From contig DFZT01000036.1 of assembly GCA_002382755.1 (NCBI GenBank), positions 1 through 30,063 on the forward strand: a DNA stretch of 30,063 bases, read 5' to 3'. Numbering within the stretch: the stretch's first letter is position 1; each line of letters starts with the position of its first letter. Under the pieces are notes generated by a model that ran no database searches, was not told where the DNA came from, and worked only from the letters and a program-made list of their open reading frames with translations. The stretch is from Firmicutes bacterium UBA4049 (GTDB lineage: Bacteria; Bacillota; Desulfotomaculia; Desulfotomaculales; Nap2-2B). This document shows positions 1-21,424 of this stretch, one piece after another. Position numbers and translations under genes: made by a program.

Positions 1-439
1 CCTTAGTGGATACCGCAAAGCATGAAGCAGGAAAAGGGGCGACTGCCTTTTCCGACCCCAGTGCAGCTTGTACTCCCAGCAAGGTTAGCCCTTCTAGCAG
101 ACCCCGGCACAAATAGCGGTAGGATTCCTCGACTCCGAGCGGGGTGTCTTCACCAGCCCGGGCTACAATACTATAAGTTAGGTCGTCCTTGTGCAGCACA
201 GCCCGCCCACCGGTAATCCGCCTGACCAGGGATATGCCATATTTGTCCAGGGCCGCCTGGTTGATACTCCCGGTTTTCTGAAAGTAACCCAGGGAAATCG
301 CCGGGGGCGACCACTGGTAAAATCTTAATACAGGGCCTGTTATTCCCCCGGTATGTTTCTTTAGCAGGGCCTCGTCAATGTCCATATTAACTTTCGGGGA
401 CATCGCGCCATGTTCAATTAAACGCCATACTTTATCCAA
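1..439 (-). CDS. Lipoate-protein ligase / octanoyltransferase (LplA/LipM family), 3' end outside window
   Basis: This protein attaches lipoate or octanoate to a carrier protein. Read on the minus strand from a TTG at 439, it opens MDKVWRLIEHG and continues through the family block RRITGGRAVLHKDDLTYS, the lipoyl-AMP or octanoyl-binding loop of the biotin/lipoate ligase fold (PF03099). It runs off the window at SCFAVSTK. A Cys in that place is the acyl-thioester residue of LipM-type octanoyltransferases, so LipM is as likely as LplA. About 146 residues are visible of a usual 250-280. The start overlaps the lipA stop by several bases, so the two genes are probably translationally coupled. It closes the arsenic/lipoyl operon and, with LipA, would lipoylate the GcvH-like carrier upstream. 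Family is confident; the exact substrate is not. Confidence 0.85.
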   Translation of the reverse strand, partial: MDKVWRLIEHGAMSPKVNMDIDEALLKKHTGGITGPVLRFYQWSPPAISLGYFQKTGSINQAALDKYGISLVRRITGGRAVLHKDDLTYSIVARAGEDTPLGVEESYRYLCRGLLEGLTLLGVQAALGSEKAVAPFPASCFAVSTK

Positions 440-1319
440 GTTTGATTACACTCCCGTAATTTTCACCGGCATGGTAGGAACTGCGTACTAGAGGGGCAGA
501 GGCCACGGCCTGGAAACCCATGTTTAAAGCTTCCGCCTCCCACTGTTTGAATTCTTCTTCCGGCAAATAGCGGTTTACCGGATAATGCCGGAGGGATGGC
601 GCCAGGTACTGACCAATTGTGACCATGCTCACCCCTGCTTCATGCAAATCCTTTAAAACCAGGCGTATCTCTTCTTCCTTTTCACCTAGCCCAAGCATGA
701 TCCCAGACTTGGTAATTACAGAAGTATCCGTGAGCTTTACCGCAGCCAACAAATCCAGTGAACGGCCATAATGGGAGCCATGACGAACGGTAGAGTATAG
801 CCGGGGAACAGTCTCCACATTGTGACCAAAAACTTCCGGCCGGGCTTCAATAACGATTTTAAGCGCTTGGGCTGAGCCATTGAAATCTGGTGTAAGTACT
901 TCTATAGAAGGAGGATTAGCCAACTTTCGCAATTCGCGGATCACTGCAGCAAAGTGGCCAGCACCGCCGTCCGGAAGATCGTCTCTGGTTACAGAAGTAA
1001 TCACCACATGAGAAAGTCCCATGTCGAATACCGCCTGCGCTAACCTATACGGTTCCTGGTCGTCTACCAGAACCGGACGGCCTTTTTCTACCGCGCAGAA
1101 ACGGCAACTCCTTGTACAAATACTGCCCAGAATCATAAATGTTGCCGTTCCCCGGGAGAAACAGTTGCCCCGGTTTGGACACCGTGCACTTTCGCAAACC
1201 GTATGCAGCTGACTGCTTTTTATTTGCTCGTTTGTTGCCACAAGCATTTGATTGTCCCGGCCCTTTTTACCCTGACGCACTGCTTCTAACAGCCAGCGGG
1301 GCGCTTGTGGTGATACAAT
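432..1319 (-). CDS. lipA: Lipoyl synthase
   Basis: Radical-SAM enzyme that inserts two sulfurs into a protein-bound octanoyl group. Counting from the GTG at 1280, the auxiliary-cluster cysteines are C29, C34 and C40 (CESARCPNRGNC). The radical-SAM CxxxCxxC is C55, C59 and C62 (CTRSCRFC). The C-terminal RSSYHA carries the Ser that ligates the auxiliary cluster. The GTG at 1280 has no ribosome binding site and would remove the family's PRWL-type N-terminus, which is present just upstream in the same frame. The only good Shine-Dalgarno (AAAAGGA, about 1332-1325) points to ATT at 1319 or a nearby near-cognate codon. I therefore place the start at 1319 with low certainty. Transcribed after lpd and overlapping the ligase gene. 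Confidence 0.9.
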   Translation of the reverse strand: MVSPQAPRWLLEAVRQGKKGRDNQMLVATNEQIKSSQLHTVCESARCPNRGNCFSRGTATFMILGSICTRSCRFCAVEKGRPVLVDDQEPYRLAQAVFDMGLSHVVITSVTRDDLPDGGAGHFAAVIRELRKLANPPSIEVLTPDFNGSAQALKIVIEARPEVFGHNVETVPRLYSTVRHGSHYGRSLDLLAAVKLTDTSVITKSGIMLGLGEKEEEIRLVLKDLHEAGVSMVTIGQYLAPSLRHYPVNRYLPEEEFKQWEAEALNMGFQAVASAPLVRSSYHAGENYGSVIKLG

Positions 1320-1342
1320 AATGTCCTTTTCTATTATGCAAT

Positions 1343-2734
1343 CTACCCCCTTTCCGGAGGAGACATATGGATAGCTCTGCCCAGAACCCCCTGGGCAACT
1401 TCCAACACCGCCTCGGGCAGTGTGGGATGGGCGTGGATAGTTTCTGTAATACCTTTAACGCCAATGTTGTTTCTCATAGCAAGAGAAATCTCAGCAATTA
1501 AGTCGCTGGCATGGGGGCCGATAATATGGCCGCCCAGGACCTGCTCTGTCTTAATGTCAACCACAAGCTTGATCATACCCTCCCAGTCACCCATAGCCTG
1601 GGCCATACCGAGGGATTTAAAGGGAAAGGATACCGCCGTAGCAGTATGCTGCTCCCGGGCCTCTTCTTCGGACAATCCTACGGCAGCATACTCGGGAGAG
1701 CTAAAAATGCAGCGGGGAATAACTCTATAATCCATTGCACTGCTTATACCCATAGCATTTTCAGCCGCAACAATCCCTTCGGCAAAGGCAACATGGGCCA
1801 ACAACATCCCGCCTATAATATCACCGGCGGCATAAATTCCTGGAACAGAGGTGCGCATACACTGGTCAACCTTCAGAGGCCTTCCGTTATGTTTAATTCC
1901 GACGCTTTCTAATCCTATATCCTTAACATTTGCAACCCGGCCTACTGCCAAAAGCATCTTATCGTTCTCAAGCGTTTTACCGTTATCCAGGGTTACCCGC
2001 ACCCCGGAGTCTCCTTCAATATTTAATACCTTTACACCGGTTAGAATTTTAACTTTCCGGCGCTTCAGCATGGTCTGCAGGTATTCCACCATCTGTGCGT
2101 CTTCCCGGGGTAGAATTGTTTTTTCCATTTCAATTAAGGTTACCATACTGCCCAATTCAGCCATAATAGCAGCCATTTCCACCCCTACCGCACCCCCGCC
2201 CAGCACCAGTAAGGAGGGAGGAACTGAAGATATTTCAAGTATATCGTCAGTGGTCAGCACCCCGGTTGTATCTCCGGCTGCTATAACCGGCCTGGCTGGC
2301 CGGGAACCGGTAGCGATTACTATTTTCCGGGCCTGGAGTCGTATAAGTGTATCATTTTGGTTTACTTCCACTATGCCAGGACTATTTAATCGTCCGACCC
2401 CTTCCAAAAGGTCGATGCGGTTTTGCTTAAACAAGTACCTGATGCCCCCGCGAAGAAGTTCCACCACTTTATTTTTTCTGGCAATAATAGCTGCAATGTC
2501 AGGGGTTATGCCTTCAACATTGATGCCGAAGGTCTTGGCTTTCCTGGCCAGGCGCAATACTTCTACCGAGGCCTTGATGGTTTTTGTAGGGATACAGCCT
2601 TTGTTTAAACAAACTCCACCCAGTTGGGCGCTTTCAACAACAGCAACCCGCCCGCCTAACTGGGCAGCGCGGATTGCTCCCTGGTACCCGGCCGGCCCGC
2701 CCCCAAGAAAGATAACATCATAAACTGCTGACAT
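1343..2734 (-). CDS. lpdA: Dihydrolipoamide dehydrogenase (E3-type flavoprotein disulfide reductase)
   Basis: FAD- and NAD-dependent enzyme that exchanges electrons between NAD(H) and protein-bound lipoyl disulfides. It has 463 residues, the normal family length. An N-terminal FAD-binding GGGPAGYQGA is followed by the redox-active pair C42/C47 in GGVCLNKGCIPTKT, an NAD-binding GGGAVGVEMA, and the C-terminal HAHPTLPE catalytic His-Glu dyad. No 2-oxoacid dehydrogenase E1 or E2 gene lies nearby. The only lipoyl-domain partner in the window is the GcvH-like protein at 4888-5349. It sits between osmC and lipA in a minus-strand operon that begins with arsR and acr3, so its likely job is to keep the lipoyl carrier (and perhaps OsmC) reduced. 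The role in arsenic handling is inference; the enzyme family is certain. Confidence 0.95.
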   Translation of the reverse strand: MSAVYDVIFLGGGPAGYQGAIRAAQLGGRVAVVESAQLGGVCLNKGCIPTKTIKASVEVLRLARKAKTFGINVEGITPDIAAIIARKNKVVELLRGGIRYLFKQNRIDLLEGVGRLNSPGIVEVNQNDTLIRLQARKIVIATGSRPARPVIAAGDTTGVLTTDDILEISSVPPSLLVLGGGAVGVEMAAIMAELGSMVTLIEMEKTILPREDAQMVEYLQTMLKRRKVKILTGVKVLNIEGDSGVRVTLDNGKTLENDKMLLAVGRVANVKDIGLESVGIKHNGRPLKVDQCMRTSVPGIYAAGDIIGGMLLAHVAFAEGIVAAENAMGISSAMDYRVIPRCIFSSPEYAAVGLSEEEAREQHTATAVSFPFKSLGMAQAMGDWEGMIKLVVDIKTEQVLGGHIIGPHASDLIAEISLAMRNNIGVKGITETIHAHPTLPEAVLEVAQGVLGRAIHMSPPERG

Positions 2735-2746
2735 GATAAGCCTCCG

Positions 2747-3172
2747 TTACTCGACTATTTCAATGACAGGCTCGATGATTATTTCACTTTTGACCGAATC
2801 GGAAATAGTAGAATATTTCCTTGCGGCCTGTAACGCCCTTTTTACCACTGCTTCTTTAGTATTGCTAACTACCAGGTGGGGTTTTAAAGTAACCCTGTTA
2901 AACCAGGAGGTTTTGTCAATCCTTTCTTCAACCTCGCCCGTAGCTACGCACTCAAAGGATAGCAACTCTATTTTGAAGCGCTCAAACGCCCATAGGACCA
3001 TCATGTGCACGCAGGTGTTTATTGCAGCCATATAGGCATCTTCCGGTGTCATCATTTTGTGGTGGCCGTGCAGAGTAGGCGGGGCCGAGAACTCCATTTC
3101 TGTTCCGTTCTCGCAATACATATAGCCCCGGTGCTCACCTTTCCAGATCACTTTATTAGAATAACTGGGCAT
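2747..3172 (-). CDS. OsmC/Ohr-family thiol peroxidase-like protein
   Basis: Small 141-residue protein of the OsmC/Ohr family, whose members reduce hydroperoxides with two cysteines. Candidate catalytic residues are C54 in TPEDAYMAAINTCVHMM and C75 in LLSFECVATGEVE, in the usual places for the peroxidatic and resolving Cys. A third Cys (C20) is extra. A strong ribosome binding site (AGGAGGA) precedes the ATG at 3172. Members of this family, especially Ohr, are known to be re-reduced by lipoylated proteins and dihydrolipoamide dehydrogenase rather than thioredoxin. That fits the gene immediately downstream (lpd) and the lipoyl carrier upstream. Whether the substrate here is a peroxide, or a thiol or arsenical adduct, cannot be told from sequence. 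Confidence 0.85.
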   Translation of the reverse strand: MPSYSNKVIWKGEHRGYMYCENGTEMEFSAPPTLHGHHKMMTPEDAYMAAINTCVHMMVLWAFERFKIELLSFECVATGEVEERIDKTSWFNRVTLKPHLVVSNTKEAVVKRALQAARKYSTISDSVKSEIIIEPVIEIVE

Positions 3173-3203
3173 ATCTTATCCTCCTCTTAAAACGATAGCT
3201 TTG

Positions 3204-3987
3204 TTATTTTTGTGCTTCGATTATAAAGGATGCCACAAATTCTTCCATGCCGGGGACCCAGCTTTTTATTATATCTTTGCTGCTATCTTTTGGAATCAAT
3301 TGGATATTTTTAAACCCGGCATTTTGGAGCATTATTTTAATATTTTCAGCATGCTCAGCTCCGGCTATACAGCCGGAAATACTTGCAAGGTTATTCTTTA
3401 TATGCTCAGGTAATTCCGCTGTAGCAACAATATCAGATATAGATATCCTGCCTCCGGATTTAAGTACCCTATATATATCATTAAAAACCTGCTGCTTATC
3501 CAAAGATAGATTTATAACACAATTTGATATTACAGCATCAACTGACTTATCAGCCACCGGTATGTGCTCAATTTCTCCCAACCTAAAGTCGATGTTTTTA
3601 TAACCACTTTTTTCGGCATTCTGCCTGGACAGCTTGATCATTTCCGGTGTCATATCCACTCCAATAACAAACCCGGTTTTCCCCGACCTGCTTTCTTGCC
3701 AAAAAACAGTCAAATCCGCCGCCACTGCCAAGGTCAAGCACCACTTCACCTTCCTTAAGCGATGCAATAGCAATTGGGTTTCCGCAGCCCAACCCCATAT
3801 TGGCTTCAATTGGAACATCTTCAAAGTCGCTTTCAGAATAACCAATTTTAATAGCTGTATCCACGATATTCATCTGCGGACCACTACAACTGCAGCCTCC
3901 GTTGCAGCATTCCACTGCGGAACCTTTTAAAGCAACCTCGGAATAATTTTTTCTAATTAAATCTCTAATTTCTTCTTTATTATTCAA
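3204..3987 (-). pseudogene. arsM: Arsenite methyltransferase ArsM, reading frame broken by one base
   Basis: SAM-dependent methyltransferase of the ArsM (As(III) S-adenosylmethionine methyltransferase) family. The first part, from a TTG near 3987, has an N-terminal Cys cluster (ECCNGGCSCSGP) and the SAM-binding VVLDLGSGGGFDCFLARKQVG. The frame then shifts, and the rest (GKTGFVIGVDMTPEMI through the conserved Cys in SNCVINLS and SGCIAGAEHA) follows in another frame down to 3204. Removing one base from the run of four C on the plus strand (3681-3684) rejoins the two halves into a family-like protein of about 260 residues. The neighbouring genes are intact, so either a homopolymer sequencing error or a real recent mutation is possible. 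The TTG at 3987 lies 10 nt after a GGAGG; another TTG is at 3996. Confidence 0.85.
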
Positions 3988-4025
3988 AATGCTCAAGCCT
4001 CCGTTCAGTTGTAAACCTTTATAAT

Positions 4026-4457
4026 TCACTGACCTTCTGCTAGAGTCGAATCGACCTTTTTGACTATTTCACCAGCTACCAAATCTATTGCAGTCTGGTC
4101 TGCATCCATTAAGGTACGGGCGGAACCAGGAGCATTAATACCATGTTCTTTCAATAAATCTGTGATAACTATGGAGTACCGTGGCTTGCCGCTGAGTCTT
4201 TCAGTGCTGATTTGGCTGCAGCGTTTGTCGCAGCCGTCTACTGTGATAGTCGGAAACTTATTTGCAAATTCCCTTTCTTCTTTACCACCGGCTATAAAAA
4301 GGGGCAGGCAGATGGTAACTGTACTGCCGGGTTTGAGTTTATCCAACAATTTACGGCAGGCAAACCTGGTCAGTGTTCCCTCAGGCAGTTCTTCCCCGTT
4401 GCATGGAATAATTCCCACCTTCTTGGGTTTTATTTCTACGAGTTCAAGAAGTTCCAA
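4026..4457 (-). CDS. DGC-domain putative zinc-binding protein (copy 2)
   Basis: 143-residue protein of the DGC-domain family of small putative metal-binding proteins. Visible features are an N-terminal PCNG after a beta strand (VGIIPCNGEELPEGTLTRF), a Cys in TICLPLF, and the signature DGCDKRC. The family's biochemical function is not established, but these proteins recur near arsenic and heavy-metal genes. It is preceded closely by a second, divergent DGC protein and followed by arsM; the tandem arrangement suggests a heteromeric pair. The cysteines would suit binding Zn(II) or As(III), which is inference. The stop lies at the beginning of the region read as arsM, so translation is probably coupled. 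Confidence 0.75.
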   Translation of the reverse strand: MELLELVEIKPKKVGIIPCNGEELPEGTLTRFACRKLLDKLKPGSTVTICLPLFIAGGKEEREFANKFPTITVDGCDKRCSQISTERLSGKPRYSIVITDLLKEHGINAPGSARTLMDADQTAIDLVAGEIVKKVDSTLAEGQ

Positions 4458-4462
4458 ATTTA

Positions 4463-4885
4463 TCAGTCCTCCTTTTTGCCTAGGCAGTCAATTTCCTTTG
4501 CCAGGTCTTCGGCTAAAAACTGTACTAACTTAAAGCCAGGTTCCCCAAGATCAAGCACTCCAGTTGGTCTAAGATCCTTGTGATGCTTGAAGATATTAAT
4601 AACCCTTACAGAATGATCCACTTTTTTACCGGTGGACTCTACATTTTTACGGGCACAATCACTGGCACAGCCGTCTATTGTAAACACTGTATTATTCTTG
4701 ACCAGATTTACAGCATCTGGGTCCCCGATCATTAGTTTTGCCAGGCAAGTGGTTATAACCTGATCAGGGTAGAAGTCTTCTATCAGGGTATAGGCGGCCT
4801 GCCGCGCCATCTCCCCGTATGCTTTGCCGATACCGCTGCACGGCAGGACCAATACTTTGTTGCCTTTTTCAGCTTTATCTTCCAT
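4463..4885 (-). CDS. DGC-domain putative zinc-binding protein (copy 1)
   Basis: 140-residue protein with the DGC signature (TIDGCASDCARKNV), an N-terminal VLVLPCSGIGKAYGEMARQAAY loop and a further Cys in ITTCLAKLM. It is paralogous to the next gene (4026-4457) but clearly diverged, so this is an old duplication rather than a recent one. It sits between the GcvH-like lipoyl protein and the second DGC protein, with only a few bases on each side, which is strong evidence for co-transcription. Function unknown. A metal- or arsenic-binding partner of the lipoyl carrier is a reasonable guess from the cysteines and context only. Confidence 0.75.
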   Translation of the reverse strand: MEDKAEKGNKVLVLPCSGIGKAYGEMARQAAYTLIEDFYPDQVITTCLAKLMIGDPDAVNLVKNNTVFTIDGCASDCARKNVESTGKKVDHSVRVINIFKHHKDLRPTGVLDLGEPGFKLVQFLAEDLAKEIDCLGKKED

Positions 4886-4887
4886 GA

Positions 4888-5349
4888 TTATTCCCCCTGC
4901 TTTTGCATTTCTTTGTCGATTTTTTCCTCCATTTTCGGAAAATATGTTTTGGCCTCCATTAAGCCGGGCTTTTCACTTTCCCAGCTGGAAGGCTTTATTT
5001 TATAGATCCAGCCCTCACCGAAGGGATCTGTATTAATCAACTGCGCGTTTTCCTCTAACTCAGCGTTTACCTCGGCTATCTCTCCGCTGACCGGTGATAT
5101 TAGGGTGAGAGTGGTTTTGATAGTTTCCAGGATGCCAACGTTGTCACCTTGCTTTATCTTGGTCCCGATCTCAAAAGCTTCTATAAAGGCTACATCGCCG
5201 ATCACTTTCTGCTGAAAATCGGTTATACCCACCAGCAGCAAGTTGCCATCCTCTCGCACCCAGCACTCCCCTGGATGATACAGGCAGCCGACACTAACCT
5301 TAAAAATAAACTTATCGTATGTTGCCTCCATAAAATTATGGTCGGACAT
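4888..5349 (-). CDS. GcvH-like lipoyl carrier protein
   Basis: 153-residue protein of the glycine-cleavage H-protein / lipoyl-domain fold. The predicted lipoyl-lysine is K78 in GILETIKTTLTLISPVSGEI, matching the ES(V/I)K...SPVSGE pattern of GcvH. The WIYKIKPSSWE region near the C-terminus also matches GcvH. It differs in its N-terminus, where a CLYHPGECW pair of cysteines appears, and in a charged C-terminal tail. No gcvT or gcvP gene is present. The operon instead provides a ligase/octanoyltransferase, LipA and Lpd, so this is probably a dedicated lipoyl carrier, comparable in logic to the lipoate-binding proteins of sulfur oxidisers. A reduced lipoyl group would bind arsenite tightly, which is established chemistry. 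That it does so here is inference. Confidence 0.85.
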   Translation of the reverse strand: MSDHNFMEATYDKFIFKVSVGCLYHPGECWVREDGNLLLVGITDFQQKVIGDVAFIEAFEIGTKIKQGDNVGILETIKTTLTLISPVSGEIAEVNAELEENAQLINTDPFGEGWIYKIKPSSWESEKPGLMEAKTYFPKMEEKIDKEMQKQGE

Positions 5350-5414
5350 TGAAAAGCCTCCTTAAAAATAATTGTTTTGGCATATCTGTCTTTAAAACAA
5401 AATTAAAATTGAGG

Positions 5415-5756
5415 TTACTGCTCACCTAGAATATCATCAATAGACTGATTTATAGCTTCTGGAGATAATCCTCCGTGAAACCGGGGTTGGCCGTTAATTA
5501 CGGTGAGAGGTAGTCTCACTTTATCAAGTATCTCTATTATATTGGGATAATCTTTAATCTTATCTGAGGAGGTATCTACGAACATAAACTCAACTTTATC
5601 GCCGTGCTTTTCCTCTAATTGCTTGCCTAATTCTAGTGCTTCATCCTTCATAGTCTTTTCAGGCCCGCAACATGTGGCGCCGGTACCGCAGCCTCACCCG
5701 GATGGGACCGGAATATTTAACCCGAATATGGTTACCCGAACTATTTTGTCTGACAT
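5415..5756 (-). CDS. Thioredoxin-like selenoprotein candidate with in-frame TGA (Sec21)
   Basis: A reading that starts downstream of the TGA sees only 78 residues. Read from the ATG at 5756, which has an AGGAGG ribosome binding site 8 nt upstream, the frame gives MSDKIVRVTIFGLNIPVPSG, then TGA (5694-5696), then GCGTGATCCGPEKTMKDEALE. The beta-strand start (VRVTIFG), a redox loop rich in Sec/Cys, and the later LPLTVINGQ cis-Pro-like segment indicate a thioredoxin-like fold, distantly like YuzD/DUF1462. The total is 113 residues with the TGA read as selenocysteine. A paralogue at 9855-10190 has a TGA in nearly the same place. The gene lies between acr3 and the GcvH-like protein, so it probably acts as a reductant or chaperone in arsenic handling. 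I did not find a convincing SECIS by eye. Confidence 0.75.
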
Positions 5757-5768
5757 ATTAGCTTCCTC

Positions 5769-6830
5769 CTACTTTTGATTTTCATTAAGTGTAAAATATT
5801 TACTTTTGAAACCAAGGGCAATATTAACAAGGCCGATCATTACCGGCACTTCAATTAGGGGACCGATTACCGCAGCAAAAGCTTGCCCGGAATTAATCCC
5901 AAAAACAGCTACTGCCACTGCGATTGCCAGCTCAAAGTTATTGCTGGCGGCTGTAAAAGCAAGCGTCGTAGTCTGGCCGTAATTAACCCCAAATGATTTG
6001 CTAAGGAAGAAGGAAAGAAAGAACATTATTACAAAGTAGATGAGAAGCGGTATGGCAATCCTAACCACGTCCATAGGTAAGGCTATAATATAATTACCCT
6101 TCAGAGAGAACATTACAATTATTGTAAACAGCAGGGCAATCAGGGCCAGAGGGCTAATCTTGGGGATAAATTTTTTCTCATACCACTCTTTGCCTTTGAC
6201 TGGCATCAGTGAAAACCTGGTGATAATACCGCCAAGAAACGGTATGCCAAGGTAAATAGCCACGCTCTTGGCCACTTCGGCCATGGAAATATGCACAACC
6301 ATAGATTTAATACCTAACCACTGGGGCAATAGAGTAACAAAAAAGTAGGCGTAAACAGAAAAGAAAAGCACTTGAAAGATCGAGTTTAAGGCTACCAGCG
6401 CAGCCGCGTACTCCGAATCGCCTTTGGCTAAGGAGTTCCAAACAATGACCATTGCTATACAGCGGGCCAGGCCGATGATAATTATGCCTACCATATATTC
6501 CGGGTAATTATGTAATAAGATGATTGCTAGAAAGAACATCAAAACAGGTCCGATAATCCAGTTCTGCACTAATGAGAGCGTCAAAACCTTACCATTCTTA
6601 AATACCTTGCCGATTTCCTCATATTTTACCTTGGCCAGGGGCGGATACATCATTACAATCAAGCCTATAGCAATTGGTATGGAAGTAGTTCCAACCTGGA
6701 ATTTCTTTAATAGACTGGCTACTTCGGGTACCATGTAACCCAGTCCTACTCCAAAAAACATAGCCAGAAAGATCCATAACGTCAAATATCGGTCAAGCTT
6801 AGATAATTTTGCCGTAGCTTTTTCAGACAT
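5769..6830 (-). CDS. acr3: Acr3-type arsenite efflux permease
   Basis: 353-residue integral membrane protein of the Acr3 family (bile acid:sodium symporter superfamily), which exports arsenite. About ten hydrophobic segments are visible. The family hallmark [19 protein letters not shown] contains C124, the conserved Cys essential in other Acr3 proteins. The later block [21 protein letters not shown] is also typical. It starts a few bases downstream of arsR and precedes the selenoprotein candidate, so it is the second gene of the arsenic/lipoyl operon. Regulation by the ArsR encoded just upstream is expected. Confidence 0.95.
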
Positions 6831-6838
6831 ACTTCTTT

Positions 6839-7222
6839 TTACCTCCTTTTTCTGTTATTATTAACCAGCATTTCGCAAACTTCGGGATCAAAACCCATCT
6901 CAATACAAAGATTAGGATTTTGCCTCAGCGGTGAAGGTTTCGGTCTAGAACAGGAAAAGCAAGTAAGATCTTCAAGAAAATCATTCACCTGTTCCAAAAA
7001 TCCCTTAAGACCTTCCTTATCCAAGGTATAAAAAACAATTTTCCCCTCCTTATCACTATTGATCAGACCTGCTTGTTTTAAGATTTTTAAATGGTGAGCT
7101 ATGGCCGGCTGCGACAGACCTATAGCCTTGATGATTTCACAAGCCCCCATTTCCTGGGAGGCCAACAGTTTTAAGATATTTTGCCTGTGCGGATCCCCGA
7201 GCGCTTTCAAGACGTTTAGCAT
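6839..7222 (-). CDS. arsR: ArsR-family metalloregulator (arsR1)
   Basis: 127-residue winged-helix repressor of the ArsR/SmtB family. The N-terminus [17 protein letters not shown] and the recognition helix [20 protein letters not shown] are typical. The classic ELCVCDL metal site in the DNA-binding helix is absent (only C28, in GACEII). Instead cysteines cluster near the C-terminus: C88, C91 (TCFSC), C106 and C116, so the As(III) site has probably relocated, as is known in several ArsR lineages. It is first in the minus-strand operon arsR1-acr3-selenoprotein-lipoyl genes. A ribosome binding site (AGGGAG) precedes the ATG at 7222. Confidence 0.92.
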
Positions 7223-8907: not shown

Positions 8908-9798
8908 ATGAACACGCTTGCTGAAACAATCAAGTATTTCATTATTATAATGATAGAACTAGCAGCACTATTTATTGGAATTAGTACTATTGTCGCATTA
9001 GTTTTCTCATATATAAACCATGATAAACTAAAGAACTGGATGGAAGGCAAGGGCATCTGGGGTAATATCTTAGGAGTAACCTTTGGGGCTATTACTCCTT
9101 TTTGTGCATGCTCCACTGTCCCGATGACTCTCGGGTTCTTACAGGCTGGAGTCCCTTTTGGAACCGTCATTTCTTTTGTAATTGCCTCACCCTTGATGGA
9201 TCCCCTAGTATTTATTATGCTCGGAGCATTTATGGGCTGGAAGGTAGCTATTGCCTTCTTAATTTTGACATCTATTGCTGCAGTTATTTTTGGGGTACTC
9301 CTCGATAAAATGGGCGGAGCAAGTCAAGTTAAAAATGTACGTCTTGTTAGAGGAGAAGGACATGATGAAGAACTGCCAACGGATTTTAGAAACAGGCTAA
9401 TCGTATCCTTTTATAAAGCATGGGGAGATTTCAAGGGAGTATTTATCTACATGATTATCGGTGTGGCAATTGGGGCGGCTATTTACGGATACTTGCCTGA
9501 AGATCTTTTAGCAAGAATTGCTGGCCGCGATAATCCCCTTGCTGTAATCGCCGTAGCTTTAATAGGCATGCCTTTATATATTCGAGTAGAATCTGCTATT
9601 CCAATCGGTCTTGCATTATTGGATAAGGGGGCAAGTATTGGAGCAGTTATGGCATTAATTATTAGCGGTGCAGGGATTGCCATCCCAGAGTTAACCATGC
9701 TTGCCAGCATATTTAAGAAAAACATAATTATTTCGTTTATAGTAATTGTATTCGTTATGGCAGTAGTGACTGGATTAATTTTTAATATGATTATTTAG
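8908..9798 (+). CDS. arsP: ArsP/DUF318-family permease
   Basis: 296-residue integral membrane protein of the permease family PF03773 (DUF318), whose characterised member ArsP exports trivalent organoarsenicals. Around eight membrane segments are seen. The family motif GAITPFCACSTVP carries the paired cysteines C66 and C68, and the second half repeats a similar topology (LIGMPLYIRVESAIPIGLALLDKGASIGAVMALIISGAGIAIPEL). A charged loop at about residues 140-165 divides the halves. An AAGGAA ribosome binding site precedes the ATG. With ArsM and ArsS nearby, export of methylated arsenicals is the likely role. A decayed second copy of part of this gene lies at 12415-12560. Confidence 0.88.
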   Translation: MNTLAETIKYFIIIMIELAALFIGISTIVALVFSYINHDKLKNWMEGKGIWGNILGVTFGAITPFCACSTVPMTLGFLQAGVPFGTVISFVIASPLMDPLVFIMLGAFMGWKVAIAFLILTSIAAVIFGVLLDKMGGASQVKNVRLVRGEGHDEELPTDFRNRLIVSFYKAWGDFKGVFIYMIIGVAIGAAIYGYLPEDLLARIAGRDNPLAVIAVALIGMPLYIRVESAIPIGLALLDKGASIGAVMALIISGAGIAIPELTMLASIFKKNIIISFIVIVFVMAVVTGLIFNMII

Positions 9799-9854: not shown

Positions 9855-10190
9855 ATAAAAGAAGTCGCTGTCACCGTATTCGGAACTGATGCTCCTATGC
9901 TAGCATCTGGCTGCTGAGGGCCGTCCACTGAGAACGCATGTTGCGGCTCTACAAAGACCATGCAAGAAGAAGCTATAGCTTTAAATAAATCGCTTGTGCA
10001 AAGTTTTGGCGAAGCAATCTGCTATACCTATGTCGATGTGCTAAGCAGCGAGATGAATAATTACCCGGAAATTGCGCAAATCCTGAATCGAGTCAGGCTA
10101 CCCCTGATTGTTCTTAATGGTCAACCCCGCTTCCACGGTGGGATTTCCAAAGAGGTGATCGCGGATGCAGTGAGTGATCTTGTAAAATGA
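9855..10190 (+). CDS. Thioredoxin-like selenoprotein candidate with in-frame TGA (second paralogue)
   Basis: Paralogue of 5415-5756. From about 9855 the frame reads KEVAVTVFGTDAPMLASGC, then TGA (9915-9917), then GPSTENACCGSTKTMQEEA. It continues through LPLIVLNGQPRFHGGIS, which matches the first copy closely (NGQPRFHGG identical). The conserved frame on both sides of the TGA, and a TGA in the same loop of both paralogues, argue for selenocysteine rather than a nonsense mutation. The start is odd. The strong GGAGG (9841-9845) lies 9 nt before an ATA codon, while the TTG at 9846 touches it and would be too close. A redox partner for arsenical export or methylation is likely. No SECIS was confidently folded. 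Confidence 0.72.
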
Positions 10191-11252: not shown

Positions 11253-11576
11253 ATGGATAAAGGTAATGAAGGTTTAGATATACAAATTACCTACTGCGTT
11301 GAATGAGGTTATTTAAATCCGGCCTCCAGTATGGCGACCGCCATTGAAGACAATACCGGATTAAAGGCTCAATTAATTGAGGGACATAACGGTATTTTTC
11401 TTGTAAATGTTAACGGGCAGACTATTTATGATAACCGGGGAGCGTGCGGTAAGCTTCCAGTAATCGAAGATATTTTAATAAGTTTACAAGTTTATCTGAG
11501 TTCTTCTTCATCTAAAATTCTAAAAAATAAAATGCAGTCCTACATAACGGATAAAAAATCTAGCACAGATTGCTGA
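11253..11576 (+). CDS. SelW/Rdx-like selenoprotein candidate with CxxU motif
   Basis: From the ATG at 11253, preceded by AGGGGGA, the frame reads MDKGNEGLDIQITYCVE, then TGA (11304-11306), then GYLNPASSMATAIEDNTGL. It continues with a Rdx/SelW-like core (LIEGHNGIFLVNVNGQTIYDNRGACGKLP). The IxYCxx(U/C)GYxxxA pattern is the hallmark redox site of the SelW/SelT/SelH (Rdx) thioredoxin-like family, where the fourth position is often Sec. Here C15 and the TGA at codon 18 form CxxU. The TGA therefore very likely encodes selenocysteine. The protein has 107 residues, slightly longer than typical bacterial members because of a C-terminal tail. Likely a thiol-redox protein serving the arsenic unit. Confidence 0.82.
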
Positions 11577-11705: not shown

Positions 11706-12185
11706 TTGCTGCTCAAAACTATTAAAGATTTAAGTGAGAAGGTATTTATTATTGGCAAATTAGAAACAGCTTTGGCACGTTTTAATGATGGATTTGCATG
11801 TTCCCAGGTTGTCCTTGCCGCATTTGCTCCGCAACTGGGTATGAGTGAAGAAATAGCTATAAAAATTGCCGGTGCATTTGGTGGTGGAGTAGCCCGTAGA
11901 GGAGATACATGTGGTGCTGTTAATGCTGCATTTATGGTAATAGGACTAAAATATGCAGATAATTGCTTAAATCGTCAAGCTACAAAAAAAGCATATACTA
12001 TTGTACGTGAATTTGTTAACAGCTTTGAAACATTGAACGGATCTATAGTTTGCAGGGATTTAATAAACTGTGATATTAGTACTTCTCAAGGATTTACTTA
12101 TGCTAAAGATAATCAGCTCTTTAACAAATTGTGTCCCAAATTCATACAGGATTCTATTGAAATCTTAGATCGCTTAATTGAATAA
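11706..12185 (+). CDS. C_GCAxxG_C_C family redox protein
   Basis: Protein of up to 159 residues from the C_GCAxxG_C_C family (putative redox-active or metal-binding proteins). The signature is complete: FACSQVVLAAFAPQLGMSEE, then AGAFGGGVARRGDTCGAVNAAFMVIG, and later cysteines in SIVCRDLINCD and LCPKF. The usual GCA is here TCGAVNAAF. The start is unclear: the TTG at 11706 has a weak ribosome binding site and several downstream starts are possible. A second family member lies at 13743-14192 in the arsenosugar cluster. Function unknown; a role in electron transfer or arsenic/selenium redox is plausible from context. Confidence 0.8.
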   Translation: MLLKTIKDLSEKVFIIGKLETALARFNDGFACSQVVLAAFAPQLGMSEEIAIKIAGAFGGGVARRGDTCGAVNAAFMVIGLKYADNCLNRQATKKAYTIVREFVNSFETLNGSIVCRDLINCDISTSQGFTYAKDNQLFNKLCPKFIQDSIEILDRLIE

Positions 12186-12783: not shown

Positions 12784-13749
12784 ATGATATGGTTCTATGG
12801 CAATCTTAAAAACAGCCTGGAAAGTATTATCCAGTTAAGAAACAATTTATGGCATAATTCATACGCAAAGACATTACTGAAAGTCATCTTCAGCGCCGGC
12901 CTTTTAGCATTTATTCTGACCAAAATTAACCTATCCATATTAGTTAATTCAGTATCAAAATGCCAATCTTCGTATCTGTTGGTTTCCTTCCTTTTTGTAA
13001 ATCTTTGCATGATCGTCAGCACTCTGAAGTGGCGCCCGTTGTTGACAGTTCAAGGGATTAGGATACCTTTCACAAGTCTTCTGTCCTTGTACTACGTTGG
13101 GCTTTTCGCCAACAATTTTCTTCCCTCCGGTATCGGGGGAGATGCTTTAAGAATATATGGCTCGGCAAGAATATCGGGTAAGACAACAGAAGCGGCCGCT
13201 TCGGTTATCTTTGAGCGCCTGCTGGCTTCCCTGGTGTTGGGGCTTACCGCTTCCCTGGCGCTATTATTTGTTTCCTTGCCGAACAGTATAAAATATCAAG
13301 TATATTGGTGCGTTGGGATTATTGTAGGGGTTTGCTTTTTTATCCCGGCGGCATTGTTTTGCTGTTCTTTCCGGGAAAATACAATGGCAGGCCGCTGGTT
13401 GTCCCAGCTAAGCAAATATAAGGCGACACCCACAGTATTAATAAAGGTTCTGGCGTTATCTTTCTTATTTCAAGCTTTAATGGTACTGGCAAACGTGTTC
13501 ATTTTCAGTTCTGCTGGCATAAACCTGCCGTTAGCCGTTCATTTTCTAAACATACCGGTTATCATGGCAGTATCAATGCTGCCCGTTTCAATCAACGGTC
13601 TCGGTATCAGAGAAGGAATGTATATTATACTCTACGGTTACGCAGGTGTTGATTCAGCCAGAGCAGTTTCATTCTCACTGTTATTCTTCATCATGGTCAC
13701 TCTGGCCAGTCTGGCAGGGGGAATTGCTCTTTTACAGAGGAAGTGGTAA
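12784..13749 (+). CDS. Flippase-like integral membrane protein (lysylphosphatidylglycerol synthase TM region / UPF0104)
   Basis: 321-residue protein with about eight membrane segments, matching the LPG synthase TM / AglD-like family (PF03706). Key blocks are NNFLPSGIGGDALRIYG and MLPVSINGLGIREGMY, the usual conserved motifs. Members of this family flip or handle lipid-linked substrates, and many sit beside glycosyltransferases. It begins an operon with ArsS and related genes, overlapping the next gene by 7 nt. No ribosome binding site is seen, but TATAAT lies at 12770-12775, only 8 nt before the ATG, so the transcript may be leaderless. Possible function: movement of lipid-linked or arsenosugar intermediates (inference). 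Confidence 0.85.
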   Translation: MIWFYGNLKNSLESIIQLRNNLWHNSYAKTLLKVIFSAGLLAFILTKINLSILVNSVSKCQSSYLLVSFLFVNLCMIVSTLKWRPLLTVQGIRIPFTSLLSLYYVGLFANNFLPSGIGGDALRIYGSARISGKTTEAAASVIFERLLASLVLGLTASLALLFVSLPNSIKYQVYWCVGIIVGVCFFIPAALFCCSFRENTMAGRWLSQLSKYKATPTVLIKVLALSFLFQALMVLANVFIFSSAGINLPLAVHFLNIPVIMAVSMLPVSINGLGIREGMYIILYGYAGVDSARAVSFSLLFFIMVTLASLAGGIALLQRKW

Positions 13750-14192
13750 GGGCGACAACAATAAATAATAATTTAATAGAAGAAGTAGGGGAAAAAGCCG
13801 CTCTTTACTTTGAACAGGGCTATAACTGCGCCCAGGCTGTTGCGTTGAGCAACGCTGAGCTGATGGGTTGTTCTACGGAAGGGATTAGGCAAATTGCCGC
13901 CGGTTTTGGCCTCGGCCTCAATTCAGGATGTACTTGTGGCGCATTGGCAGGAGGGGTAATGTCCATAGGCATGCTGTTGGCCGGTCCTGAAACAAAAGGC
14001 TTTGATAAGATAATCGGTGAAATGGCTTCGGAACTGCAAAAGAGGTTCATCGGCAAGTTTGGTTCGACTTGCTGCAGGGTTCTCAGAAAGAAATTTTCTC
14101 CTTTAAAGAATACACACTGTAAAATGATTACTGCTACAACTGCTGTGATCACAATGGAACTGCTGATGCAAAGTAAAGAGCCTTCTCATTAA
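13743..14192 (+). CDS. C_GCAxxG_C_C family redox protein (second copy)
   Basis: 149-residue member of the C_GCAxxG_C_C family. YNCAQAVALSNAELMGCSTEGIRQIAAGFGLGLNSGCTCGALAGGVMSIGMLLAG shows the signature, followed by STCCRVLRKKF and HCKMITATTAV. It differs strongly from the protein at 11706-12185. The GTG start overlaps the end of the flippase-like gene, and ArsS follows directly. This placement in an ArsS operon suggests a redox role in arsenosugar synthesis. Confidence 0.85.
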   Translation: MVRATTINNNLIEEVGEKAALYFEQGYNCAQAVALSNAELMGCSTEGIRQIAAGFGLGLNSGCTCGALAGGVMSIGMLLAGPETKGFDKIIGEMASELQKRFIGKFGSTCCRVLRKKFSPLKNTHCKMITATTAVITMELLMQSKEPSH

Positions 14193-14218
14193 CACTTTAA
14201 ACTATGAGGAGTTGTTTT

Positions 14219-15247
14219 ATGAGCTCAAAAAGGCAACCGGCGGAACAATCTAAAAATCAGATATTGAATTGTTTGAAAAACACCGCTGTTCCCCCGTTTA
14301 AGCAAAGACTTGAACAGTTGGGATTGCATCCTCTGGAAAGCTCCGGCATTTCCACTCTTCAGGTGAATGTAGGCAATAACTGCAGCCTTTCCTGCAGTCA
14401 CTGCCATGTTGACGCCGGACCTAATCGAACAGAAATCATGGACAGGCATACGATGTCCAAATGTCTGGATGCACTAGTGATTAACGGAATCACCACTTTG
14501 GATATCACTGGCGGCTCGCCCGAGTTGAATCCCGATTTGCCTTTTCTTATTGAAGAGGCTTCCAGGATGGGAAAGCAGGTTATCATACGGACCAATTTGG
14601 CTGTACTGGAACTTGATGATTTCGCTTACCTGGCGGATTTTTACGCAAGCAACAGAGTTTGGTTAATAGCTTCTCTGCCCTGCTACACTGAAGAAAACAC
14701 AGACAGGCAGCGCGGGCCGGGTACATTCAAAGCGGTCATCCGGGTTCTCAGGCGAATGAATAATCTTGGTTATGGCCTTGAAGGAAGCCAGTTAACTATC
14801 GACCTTGCCTATAATCCTGGCGGACCATATCTTCCACCTTACCAGTATACTCTTGAAGAAGAATTCCGCAGCGTCCTGACGAGCGAATATGGAGTATCTT
14901 TTAACAGGCTGTATTCTCTCACAAACGCGCCAATTGGACGTTTCCTTGATTCTCTGCTTTATACCGGAGATTTTGAACCGTATCTCAAGTTATTATCGAA
15001 TGCTTTTAATCCATCCACTGTAGAAAAGGTAATGTGCCGCGATCAAATCTCGGTCGGTTGGGACGGCCAACTTTATGACTGTGATTTTAATCAGGTGTTA
15101 GGTTTAAACTGTACCCCTGAATCACCAGGCAGCATTGCCGGATTTGATTATGAATCTATGAAAAAACGGCGGATAATTACAGGGAACCATTGTTACGCTT
15201 GTACAGCAGGCGCCGGGTCCAGCTGTAAAGGTATTTGCGTTGCTTAA
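14219..15247 (+). CDS. arsS: Arsenosugar biosynthesis radical SAM protein ArsS
   Basis: 342 residues from the ATG at 14219, chosen because GAGGAG lies about 8 nt upstream; an in-frame ATG at 14204 is less well placed. The radical-SAM triad C55, C59, C62 appears in NNCSLSCSHCHVDAGP. The C-terminal domain carries MCRDQISVGWDGQLYDCDF and the ending NHCYACTAGAGSSCKGICVA, the Cys-rich tail typical of the ArsS family (named 'radical SAM/Cys-rich', with Sec in some members). ArsS turns dimethylated arsenic plus a 5'-deoxyadenosyl unit into the arsenosugar precursor, downstream of ArsM. Here the tail has Cys only. It is within a long plus-strand operon with flippase, TVP38 and rhodanese genes. Confidence 0.93.
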   Translation: MSSKRQPAEQSKNQILNCLKNTAVPPFKQRLEQLGLHPLESSGISTLQVNVGNNCSLSCSHCHVDAGPNRTEIMDRHTMSKCLDALVINGITTLDITGGSPELNPDLPFLIEEASRMGKQVIIRTNLAVLELDDFAYLADFYASNRVWLIASLPCYTEENTDRQRGPGTFKAVIRVLRRMNNLGYGLEGSQLTIDLAYNPGGPYLPPYQYTLEEEFRSVLTSEYGVSFNRLYSLTNAPIGRFLDSLLYTGDFEPYLKLLSNAFNPSTVEKVMCRDQISVGWDGQLYDCDFNQVLGLNCTPESPGSIAGFDYESMKKRRIITGNHCYACTAGAGSSCKGICVA

Positions 15248-19275: not shown

Positions 19276-20085
19276 TTAGCTCAATTCTCCCTGAACAACA
19301 AACTTGACCATATGATCATCAATAATCCGACGCTTATTTTGAGATCCATAAATCAGCGAATGAGTGCAGACCTTGTTTACCAAACGGGCAGTACCACTGG
19401 AATACCGAAAAATTTCATCGACCGCATTGTCTGAAAAGATATCCTGTTCAACACCGGCATATGTCAGGTGTTTTTTTACATACTCACCCATTTGGGCGCG
19501 ATCCATATGTGGTAGTTTGCATTGGATGTCGATGCGCTGCCGGATGGCGGCGTATGTCTGGAGCTGAAATCTTTCCCAGAGTTCACTTTGACCCACAAGG
19601 ATTAGGGACATAGGACTCCGGGCATCCATTTTAGTATTAAGCAGGAATCTGACTTCCTCCAGCATTTCTCTGTCCAACAGGTGAGCCTCATCCACAATTA
19701 CAACCGGCTGCAGGTGGTGAATACCTTGCATGAGTTCAATCTCTTTATGCAGTTGGCGTTTAGCATCCCCACGATAGAACTTGGCTTCACAGCCTAATTG
19801 TTCCAGAAGACCTTTGTAAAAATGACGCGGGGTTAGCTTGGAATCTGCCAGGTACATTACCGTGAATTTAGCTTCATCCAGGCATTCTTTAAAATAACGA
19901 ATGGCGGTGGTTTTTCCAGTACCGCAATCTCCTGTTACCACCGCGAACATCTGCCGCTGCGCCGCATAATTCAACCGCCCAAAGGTTTCTTCCAGCATGG
20001 TTGACTGGTATAAATGGTCTGTCGGAATATCCCTTGAAAAGGGAGTCCGGGTCATCCCGTAGAAGCTTTCAAACACGATCGGCAA
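19276..20085 (-). CDS. ExeA/TniB-like AAA ATPase of the transposon
   Basis: 269-residue AAA+ protein. Opening FESFYGMTRTPFSRDIPTDHLYQS is typical of ExeA-like ATPases. Walker A is VVTGDCGTGKTT, Walker B VVIVDEAHLL, and the C-terminal GTARLVNKVCTHSLIYG is the usual end. Such proteins choose or mark targets for a DDE transposase. Its start overlaps the transposase end by 17 nt, which shows co-translation. Confidence 0.9.
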   Translation of the reverse strand: MPIVFESFYGMTRTPFSRDIPTDHLYQSTMLEETFGRLNYAAQRQMFAVVTGDCGTGKTTAIRYFKECLDEAKFTVMYLADSKLTPRHFYKGLLEQLGCEAKFYRGDAKRQLHKEIELMQGIHHLQPVVIVDEAHLLDREMLEEVRFLLNTKMDARSPMSLILVGQSELWERFQLQTYAAIRQRIDIQCKLPHMDRAQMGEYVKKHLTYAGVEQDIFSDNAVDEIFRYSSGTARLVNKVCTHSLIYGSQNKRRIIDDHMVKFVVQGELS

Positions 20086-21424
20086 CCTCCTTTTCTACCT
20101 TCCGGTAGGTTATAGCGGGCGCCGTTTGTTCTTTGCGCAACTGGTTTTGTTTAGACGCAGCATTGAGCAGCCTTGAAGATTCCGCCGGTTTAGTCAGCAG
20201 GTGTTCCGGTAACGGGGGCCTTTGACCGGAGCGTTCGCCGATGATTAGCTGTTTTGCTTTCCAGGGAGAGTGTCCTTCGTATTCAATAGTCAGTTCGGTA
20301 ATGTCCGCGGGATCATAGATAACATTTACGGTACAACCGATAAAGAGCAGCCCTGCTTCGTATTTTTTACCGGCGAAGCTGATACAGCCTGACTTGTCAA
20401 CTTTTCTTTCCTCGCAGTTTAGAAAAGCATCGGCGACGGTCTCGGAAGGCAGGAAACGCAAGGGCTGTTTGTCGCTGCGATAGGCGACGGCTGGGCTTAG
20501 CCCGTCCGCCAGTCCGGAATGAGGGCGGTTGTTGTAGCACTCTTCTAACCAGACCCGGAACAACTGGTTAAGCTTATCCAGAGTTGAAGGTTTCTCTAGG
20601 GCGGCTTCCGCCAGGAAGCTGTCTACCACCCGGTTCAGACGTTCTGATTTGCCGTGGGCTTCCGGAGAAAAGGGCTTGGTGTAAAGCAGCCGGACACCCA
20701 GCTTGGCGCAGGCCCGGGCCATCCATTTGGTGCGGTACTGCCGCCCATTGTCAAAATACAGCGCCCTGGGCGCTCCGTACTTCTGGATAACCTGGCGGAA
20801 ACAGTCCTGGACGATACCCTGTTCCAGATTATTATAGAACTGTCCGTGTAAAACATAACGCGTTGCGTCATCAATGAAGGTTACCAGATAGACCTGTTTC
20901 ATGGCGCCGTCTTTACCAATGGGCAGATAGGGGCCGTATTTGATATCCGAATGAACAAGCTGGTTGCGGTACCGCTTCTGAAATCTTCGGGCAGCTACCC
21001 CGGTCTCGGCATACATTCTCATCTGCCTGGCGCTGTAGCCTTGTTCCGCAAGCTTTCCCTGCAGGGTACTGCGCTTGATCTGTCCTGGTTGGGCCAGCCC
21101 TTCCCATTCGAGGATCTTTATGATTTGGGCAATGCTGCGGCCCGGTACCTGTCGCCGCAATAGAATAGCCTGTTCCAGCAGTGCAGGAGGAATAGTTTCC
21201 TCGGAACTGTGTTGTTGTTTGCTTTTGGGTTTAAGACCGTTAAATCCCTCTGCTTGATACTGTGCCAGGTATCGTCGCAAAGTGCGTTCGGAGATACCGT
21301 TCTGTGCACAGATACCGGCTTTGATCTGTTTGGCCCGGGCTGTGTCCAGTCCCTGGTCCAGCAATGGTAATAACAGCTGTACCCGCTTAGTGGCAATCTC
21401 GTCTGCTTTTTTCTGGTCTCTCAT
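20069..21424 (-). CDS. DDE transposase (rve integrase core, Mu/TniA-like)
   Basis: 451 residues. An N-terminal helix-turn-helix (NGISERTLRRYLAQYQAEGFNGLKPKSK) is followed by an rve core with the three catalytic acids in HSDIKYGPY, YFDNGRQYRTKWM and SPEAHGKSERLNRVVD. A C-terminal beta-barrel-like region follows (KKYEAGLLFIGCTVNVIYDP). The frame is intact, so the element may be active. Overlaps the ATPase and lies 57 nt after the DUF6431-like gene. Confidence 0.93.
   Translation of the reverse strand: MRDQKKADEIATKRVQLLLPLLDQGLDTARAKQIKAGICAQNGISERTLRRYLAQYQAEGFNGLKPKSKQQHSSEETIPPALLEQAILLRRQVPGRSIAQIIKILEWEGLAQPGQIKRSTLQGKLAEQGYSARQMRMYAETGVAARRFQKRYRNQLVHSDIKYGPYLPIGKDGAMKQVYLVTFIDDATRYVLHGQFYNNLEQGIVQDCFRQVIQKYGAPRALYFDNGRQYRTKWMARACAKLGVRLLYTKPFSPEAHGKSERLNRVVDSFLAEAALEKPSTLDKLNQLFRVWLEECYNNRPHSGLADGLSPAVAYRSDKQPLRFLPSETVADAFLNCEERKVDKSGCISFAGKKYEAGLLFIGCTVNVIYDPADITELTIEYEGHSPWKAKQLIIGERSGQRPPLPEHLLTKPAESSRLLNAASKQNQLRKEQTAPAITYRKVEKEVADRV

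Follow-up and report, generated by a model that had tools for sequence, protein, structure and literature searches.

A lipoyl carrier in an Acr3-type arsenic operon

Lipoyl groups are textbook targets of arsenic. Among the closest described systems, LbpA is the lipoate-binding, GcvH-like protein of the Hdr-like sulfur oxidation pathway (PMC6067878); GcvH-L and LplA2 occur with SirTM and a macrodomain protein in an operon linked to stress responses, and the main text of the paper concerned contains no word beginning with 'arsen' (PMC4518038); and lipoylated proteins reduce Ohr, a member of the Ohr/OsmC family that is assayed with lipoamide and Lpd (PMC5962072). An ArsR-family regulator followed by Acr3 forms the defining core of the Acr3-type ars operon, and this core is present in the DNA described here, a 30,063-nucleotide stretch from Firmicutes bacterium UBA4049 (contig DFZT01000036.1, positions 1 to 30,063; below, the window is this whole stretch). 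There it is joined to a GcvH-like lipoyl carrier in what appears to be an arsenic-resistance operon with a self-contained lipoyl-carrier module. The interest of the locus lies in a conserved, arsenic-linked operon that seems to make a lipoyl carrier for itself and to recharge it, found in several genomes where neither a glycine cleavage nor a 2-oxoacid dehydrogenase complex was detected. A cofactor poisoned by arsenic may thus be put to work in arsenic handling.

The window makes up the left part of a contig of 38,495 bases (C19), which belongs to a 1.8-Mb genome (G000) that is 92.9% complete. A single run of minus-strand genes extends from position 7222 to the contig end. It opens with arsR (6839..7222), an ArsR/SmtB regulator (PF01022) with a cysteine near its C-terminus, and acr3 (5769..6830), an arsenite efflux permease (TIGR00832, 464 bits against a cut-off of 283). 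Next come a small thioredoxin-like gene with an in-frame TGA at 5696-5694 (5415..5756), whose product is probably a selenocysteine (Sec) protein with the motif GUGCG, and the carrier gene (4888..5349; PF01597, 116 bits), which encodes a lipoyl lysine, K78, together with Cys22 and Cys29. Two DGC genes follow, DGC1 (4463..4885) and DGC2 (4026..4457), matching PF08859 with 59 and 62 bits. The remaining genes are arsM, encoding an arsenite methyltransferase (3204..4029), osmC (2747..3172; PF02566), lpd, encoding dihydrolipoyl dehydrogenase (1343..2734; TIGR01350, 497 bits against 409), lipA, encoding lipoyl synthase (432..1340, start codon uncertain; TIGR00510, 354 against 310), and a gene for a lipoate ligase or octanoyltransferase of the lplA/lipM type (1..439; PF21948, 80 bits against 27). 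Every gene that had been named for positions 1-7222 is thus present on the minus strand. Two of them stand with a reservation. arsM is frameshift-split in this assembly, its open reading frames (ORFs; 4029-3598 and 3845-3204) scoring 119 and 216 bits with NF008823, whose cut-off of 263 applies to the whole protein, and lplA is cut by the contig end, its intact relative in locus L044 having 269 amino acids.

Neighbouring genes of the run overlap by at most 8 bp or are separated by at most 65 bp, and we found no terminator-like match inside the gaps between them, so that the genes are likely to form one transcription unit. The promoter-like match upstream of arsR (7328-7300) is a consensus match only, in a region where such matches total 19 against 14.6 expected. 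Because lplA is cut, the operon may continue beyond the contig end.

Descent of the carrier and recurrence of its partners

The carrier's K78 lies within ILETIKTT, which satisfies the ExxK motif (here ETIK) of the PF01597 domain, and the lysine is conserved in 106 of 106 database proteins (P0002-P0107). On the curated gcvH score, with a cut-off of 115.85, the window's carrier reached 106.3 and its relative in genome G210 126.8; automatic annotation will therefore call some of these carriers GcvH. With the NCBIfam model NF045810, 'GcvH-related protein', the window's carrier scores 51 against a cut-off of 150. The adjoining number, NF045809, belongs to the selenoprotein TsoX (PMC13188914), and from this adjacent numbering we infer that proteins of the two families have been seen together.

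A prediction made earlier from the DNA alone would have failed if the carrier had clustered with true GcvH. A quick maximum-likelihood tree was built from 89 rows (46 ordinary GcvH, 27 carriers, 6 DGC-GcvH fusions and 10 unlabelled database rows). In it one branch divides the 46 ordinary GcvH rows from the 27 carrier and 6 fusion rows, with a support of 99 in the Shimodaira-Hasegawa-like approximate likelihood ratio test (SH-aLRT), the one support measure of this tree. The carrier thus stands apart from ordinary GcvH, and nine of the ten unlabelled rows fall on its side. The carrier rows by themselves are less firmly grouped (SH-aLRT 94). Three fusion rows in wrong frames (L066-L068) were omitted from the alignment (A3).

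The carrier was sought in three sets of genomes, 113 from the class, 398 from the phylum and 395 from the phylum to which a Desulfobacula genome belongs. Ten other genomes of the class matched at E <= 1e-36, ordinary GcvH reaching no better than about 1e-27; in the phylum search 7 of 398 genomes exceeded 190 bits (the window's own genome and G019 included), with the next match at 150; and 10 of 395 genomes in the phylum of the Desulfobacula genome matched at E <= 1e-42. The resulting set holds 28 carrier-subfamily loci from 25 other genomes. Excluded were a second, contig-end copy in G012 (L046) and a 36% carrier fragment with DGC genes in G011 (L057); two of the 28 loci (L049 and L056, both from G090) contain broken carrier copies.

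Within 10 kb of these 28 carriers we found Acr3 at 21 loci, ArsR, DGC1 and DGC2 at 19 each, Lpd at 18, OsmC at 17, the thioredoxin-like protein at 14, LipA and LplA at 13 each, and ArsM at 9. Some of the DGC2 distances are cross-matches to DGC1, and LplA is undercounted, since the cut gene served as its query and missed full-length LplA beside the carrier in L045 (where its identity was confirmed) and L052-L055. The DGC pair (19 of 28) is therefore a far steadier close partner than ArsM (9 of 28). Counted by genome, Acr3 lies near the carrier in 18 of 25, and in five of the other seven a contig end falls within 5 kb. The link of carrier and Acr3 was found in both searched phyla.

Shorter flanks allow a comparison with 36 other GcvH-family loci, these controls being next-best matches that were not individually checked for gcvP. 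Within 1.5 kb, Acr3 accompanies 15 of 26 subfamily carriers (one of them, L017, through a weak 27% SBF-family match) and none of the 36 controls; for DGC the counts are 19 of 26 and none. Lpd was present in 13 of 26 subfamily loci versus 3 of 36 controls, and LplA in 2 of the 36. Complete or near-complete sets in the same order (Acr3, carrier, DGC1, DGC2, OsmC, Lpd, LipA, LplA) occur at L044, L089, L091, L117 and L118, of which L089, in G210, holds Acr3 through LplA. Conservation of gene order elsewhere had been proposed as a check, and the order is indeed shared with other genomes; a set that recurs in this way is more than a chance assembly of genes.

The carriers of the 26 short-flank loci are of two types. 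Type A (20 of 26) has the canonical lipoyl loop with ETIK, while type B (6 of 26; L019-L024) has lost ETIK and gained an insertion. DGC genes adjoin 19 of 20 type A carriers, the exception being L110, whose DNA ends 202 bp past the carrier, and no type B carrier. Acr3 is retained at each of the six type B loci, with DGC1, DGC2 and OsmC absent within 1.5 kb, and in four of the six LplA adjoins the carrier and the genome has neither GcvP nor E2 (the 2-oxoacid dehydrogenase acyltransferase). Since type B falls in two places of the tree, the contrast between the types may reflect only two events. The carrier is linked to Acr3 where DGC is missing and to DGC where Acr3 is missing, which makes it the hub of the association.

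Some loci show features of their own. Upstream of two clusters without close Acr3 lie genes for an extracytoplasmic function (ECF) sigma factor and a DUF2703 protein (L045 6833-8558; L047 12042-13362), and these clusters are perhaps under another regulation or serve another substrate. In G090, broken carrier copies stand directly downstream of acr3 (L049 9678-10138 and L056 9783-10053) and an intact copy in L048; the broken ones point to decay of duplicated modules.

Possible roles of the lipoyl arm

The absence of a glycine-cleavage or 2-oxoacid dehydrogenase partner, noted earlier for the operon, held across the whole 92.9%-complete genome: no 2-oxoacid dehydrogenase E2 was found in it, and its best match to the GcvP family PF02347 scored 22.6 bits, below the cut-off of 26. 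Its single lipA is the one in the operon. The genome's two remaining GCV_H matches, both weak (30 and 27 bits), are proteins of 79 and 86 residues with AMKM and ATKM motifs, which we take to be of the biotin type. The 25 other carrier genomes are divided, 6 having GcvP, 8 E2, 11 one or both and 14 neither. G210, a single contig of 2,405,559 bp, has neither, and the carrier is its sole GcvH-family match at E <= 1e-20. In genomes without GcvP and E2, lipoate synthesis may serve this module alone; the statement that there is no other lipoyl client is limited to the families searched and, in the case of the window, to a single genome that is incomplete.

How could such a module act on arsenic? From the families of the encoded proteins, LplA/LipM and LipA would furnish K78 of the carrier with its lipoyl group and mature it, and Lpd with NADH would reduce that group to the dithiol. 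The dihydrolipoyl arm could then capture As(III) as a cyclic dithioarsenite and pass it on, with the DGC pair and its cysteine sites as the likeliest recipients and export by Acr3, or methylation by ArsM where present, as the presumed final destination. This reading draws on chemistry known for the lipoyl cofactor, as dihydrolipoamide has a binding constant of 5.47e9 per molar for the trivalent arsenical melarsen oxide (PMC7072575). We favour carriage of As(III) by the arm over a flow of electrons through it, at a little short of an even chance. The fuller proposal, in which protein-bound lipoyl is a metalloid carrier, a dedicated GcvH-like swinging arm that a four-cysteine DGC pair loads or unloads for delivery to Acr3 or ArsM, is more tentative still. 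That the module serves arsenic in one way or another is, by contrast, probable.

The DGC pair belongs to a family for which we know of no function. In each of the two proteins four cysteines (16, 47, 73 and 77 in DGC1) are invariant in 25 of 25 sequences, those from fusion-type clusters included. The AlphaFold model of DGC1 is confident (predicted local distance difference test score, pLDDT, 89.5) and of alpha/beta type, and it has no clear counterpart among PDB structures; Cys16 and Cys73 directly follow beta strands and Cys47 and Cys77 stand at helix starts, a placement that in the model would suit a shared thiol site.

Several observations weigh against an arm that carries arsenic. Seven of the 28 loci have no close Acr3 within 10 kb, and two of these (L047 and L123) are not near a contig end, L047 having no more than a 35% match to Acr3 and a 27% one to SBF. 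The ETIK motif is disrupted in the six type B carriers, the relative in G210 scores above the ordinary gcvH cut-off, 11 of the 25 other carrier genomes possess GcvP or E2, it is not evident why a pure As(III) carrier should need OsmC or Lpd, and acr3 is found within 1.5 kb in none of six fusion-type loci. The original prediction of a lipoyl group that serves arsenic handling survives in part. Genetic linkage and the absence of another detected lipoyl client in the genome support it, whereas ArsM is a weaker partner than the DGC pair, and the fusion relatives lack nearby acr3.

The need for OsmC and Lpd is better met if the arm moves electrons and not arsenic. Lpd would then feed electrons from NADH into the lipoyl carrier, and the acceptors would be OsmC, the DGC pair and the Sec- or Cys-containing thioredoxin-like protein; together these would reduce an oxidised arsenical (arsenate, methylarsenate or thioarsenate) or repair thiols, before Acr3 exports As(III). 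We consider this somewhat unlikely. Lpd lies within 10 kb at 18 of 28 loci, OsmC at 17 and the thioredoxin-like protein at 14, all of which fits such a scheme, as does the reduction of an Ohr/OsmC-family protein, Ohr, by lipoylated proteins (PMC5962072). Cys54 of the window's OsmC, of the peroxidatic type, is kept in 18 of 18 cluster OsmCs, and no second cysteine occurs in the columns of residues 119-123 in any of these 18 rows. It is around these residues that the resolving cysteine of Ohr would probably fall, so that the cluster OsmC would need an outside thiol. On the other side, an ArsC-like protein elsewhere in the genome (150 bits, below the cut-off of 174) means that arsenate reduction need not depend on the operon. 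Acr3 moreover remains linked to the carrier at loci that lack DGC and OsmC, and in L050 and L051 Lpd as well, which fits carriage of As(III) better. These two loci keep Acr3, carrier, LipA and LplA, with no Lpd, OsmC or DGC in the DNA covered; both have an altered carrier loop, however, and the DNA of L051 stops 2.6 kb downstream.

The fusion proteins bear on a different possibility. They have about 290 residues, with the DGC domain N-terminal and the GcvH domain C-terminal, and the named Clostridia that have them include Dehalobacter, Desulfitobacterium hafniense and Clostridium ljungdahlii. They resemble the window's system in that they group with the carrier in the tree and are followed by the same DGC pair, and differ in that the domains are fused and acr3 is absent within 1.5 kb; in L094 it is about 5.5 kb off. 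That the two domains are fused speaks clearly for cooperation of DGC and lipoyl carrier. Beside the fusion in L095 and L096 are an Lpd-like gene, a small protein matching HdrA weakly (21 bits) and a ferredoxin-like gene, and inspection alone suggested cysteine-desulfurase-like and HesB-like genes in L094 or L096. The redox neighbours vary among L094-L096, and L096 has an extra DGC pair followed by two small lipoyl- or biotinyl-like proteins.

Given these clusters, arsenic may not be the ancestral substrate, and the HdrA-like, ferredoxin-like, cysteine-desulfurase-like and HesB-like neighbours are a warning that the ancestral function may have been sulfur chemistry. The lipoyl-DGC system could accordingly serve another thiol-active substrate, for example in a sulfur or persulfide relay, and have become a neighbour of arsenic genes in one lineage; LbpA offers a precedent for GcvH-like carriers in sulfur oxidation (PMC6067878). 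For the window's subfamily we regard this as quite unlikely, as its Acr3 link spans both searched phyla and outlasts loss of the DGC pair, and no hdr family was matched among the operon proteins scanned, the operon's left end being missing.

Least probable by far, and largely refuted for this genome, is that the carrier is a glycine-cleavage H protein of the ordinary kind or that, as a decoy or spare, it shields lipoyl enzymes from arsenic, since PF01597 membership, the gcvH score of the G210 relative and the carrier genomes with GcvP (6 of 25) or E2 (8 of 25) are offset by the branching of the carrier apart from ordinary GcvH and by the window's own genome and G210, where no GcvP above cut-off and no E2 exist for it to serve or protect. 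A GcvP in the missing 7% of the genome would revive this reading.

Neighbouring genes

The two DGC proteins and the selenoprotein candidate of the original prediction are all present, the former as PF08859 matches and the latter as an ORF with an in-frame TGA (5756-5415) in a genome that encodes SelB (385 bits against a cut-off of 242). Cys-bearing relatives of the candidate occur elsewhere and a TGA-bearing paralogue lies at 9858-10187, U and C replacing one another among the relatives. We found no bacterial selenocysteine insertion sequence (SECIS) signal for the thioredoxin-like TGA gene, and the window's protein, its paralogue and two relatives gave no match to any NCBIfam model, those of known selenoprotein families (Sao, Tso and others) included, at E <= 0.001. 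The two relatives score as DUF1462; the window's protein has no Pfam match.

The paralogue, on the plus strand, adjoins a permease gene (8908-9795) whose product has a weak resemblance to SaoE and to Cu/Zn efflux transporters, with scores well short of the cut-offs for these. Further along the plus strand are a SelT/SelW/SelH-like gene with a CxxU motif, its U from an in-frame TGA (11253-11573; 45 bits to NF041051, cut-off 88), a redox protein of the C-GCAxxG-C-C type (11706-12185, scoring 69 against 47) and an apparent second one (13743-14192). ArsS, the arsenosugar radical-SAM protein, is encoded at 14204-15244 on the same strand (408 bits against 300) and is followed by DedA-like, rhodanese-like and glycosyltransferase-like genes recognised by inspection; together they are perhaps an arsenosugar or arsenolipid cluster. 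A second arsR-acr3 pair lies on the same contig outside the window (L058 12407-13897; G000:C19 about 32406-33896). Its Acr3 is 93% identical to that of the operon, and no lipoyl gene was matched in the stretch fetched. ArsS and this second pair place the operon in a setting of arsenic metabolism. Transposase-like ORFs, of insertion sequence (IS) type by inspection, lie to the right of the arsenic genes (20069-21424 and 27094-28713).

Comparison with known systems

Searches of an open-licence library, outside which most subscription papers fall, brought up no account of an arsenic operon with a lipoyl carrier, and priority is therefore not established. Papers that did come up dealt with the proteome of Pseudomonas under arsenic and cyanide, with LbpA and with lipoate assembly, the last two not using the word arsenic. 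If carriage of As(III) by the lipoyl arm is correct, lipoate gains a further role, distinct from those in carbon metabolism and sulfur oxidation, the DGC family gets its first biochemical partner, and a cofactor classically poisoned by arsenic becomes a detoxification device, in organisms that seemingly use lipoate for nothing else.

Ordinary GcvH is an improbable identity for the carrier, which has no GcvP partner above the cut-off in its 92.9%-complete genome and does not branch among ordinary GcvH proteins in the quick tree. LbpA shares with it the GcvH-like single lipoyl domain, adjoining ligase genes of its own and a role outside glycine cleavage; it differs in clustering with hdr-like genes, where the window's operon has DGC, OsmC and Acr3 instead, and in having a conserved cysteine near each end, some archaeal LbpA proteins excepted, whereas the window's carrier has only Cys22 and Cys29 (PMC6067878). 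With no cysteines near both ends and no hdr match among the operon proteins scanned, the operon's left end being missing, the carrier is by these tests not an LbpA. The GcvH-L/LplA2 operon with SirTM and macrodomain likewise combines an operon-specific lipoyl carrier with its own ligase and a link to stress response (PMC4518038); we set this identity aside as well, because neither a sirtuin nor a macrodomain was matched among the window's operon proteins scanned, from which the left end is missing. The association of Ohr/OsmC with a lipoylated protein and Lpd is mirrored by the OsmC-family gene near the lipoyl protein and Lpd (PMC5962072). The window's system departs from it in the company of Acr3, ArsR and the DGC pair and in an OsmC without a second cysteine where one would be expected. 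With Acr3-type ars operons, finally, the window shares the arsR-acr3(-arsM) core; no match to the ArsD family was obtained among ten operon proteins scanned, and to that core the window adds a lipoyl carrier and its biosynthesis, Lpd, the DGC pair and OsmC.

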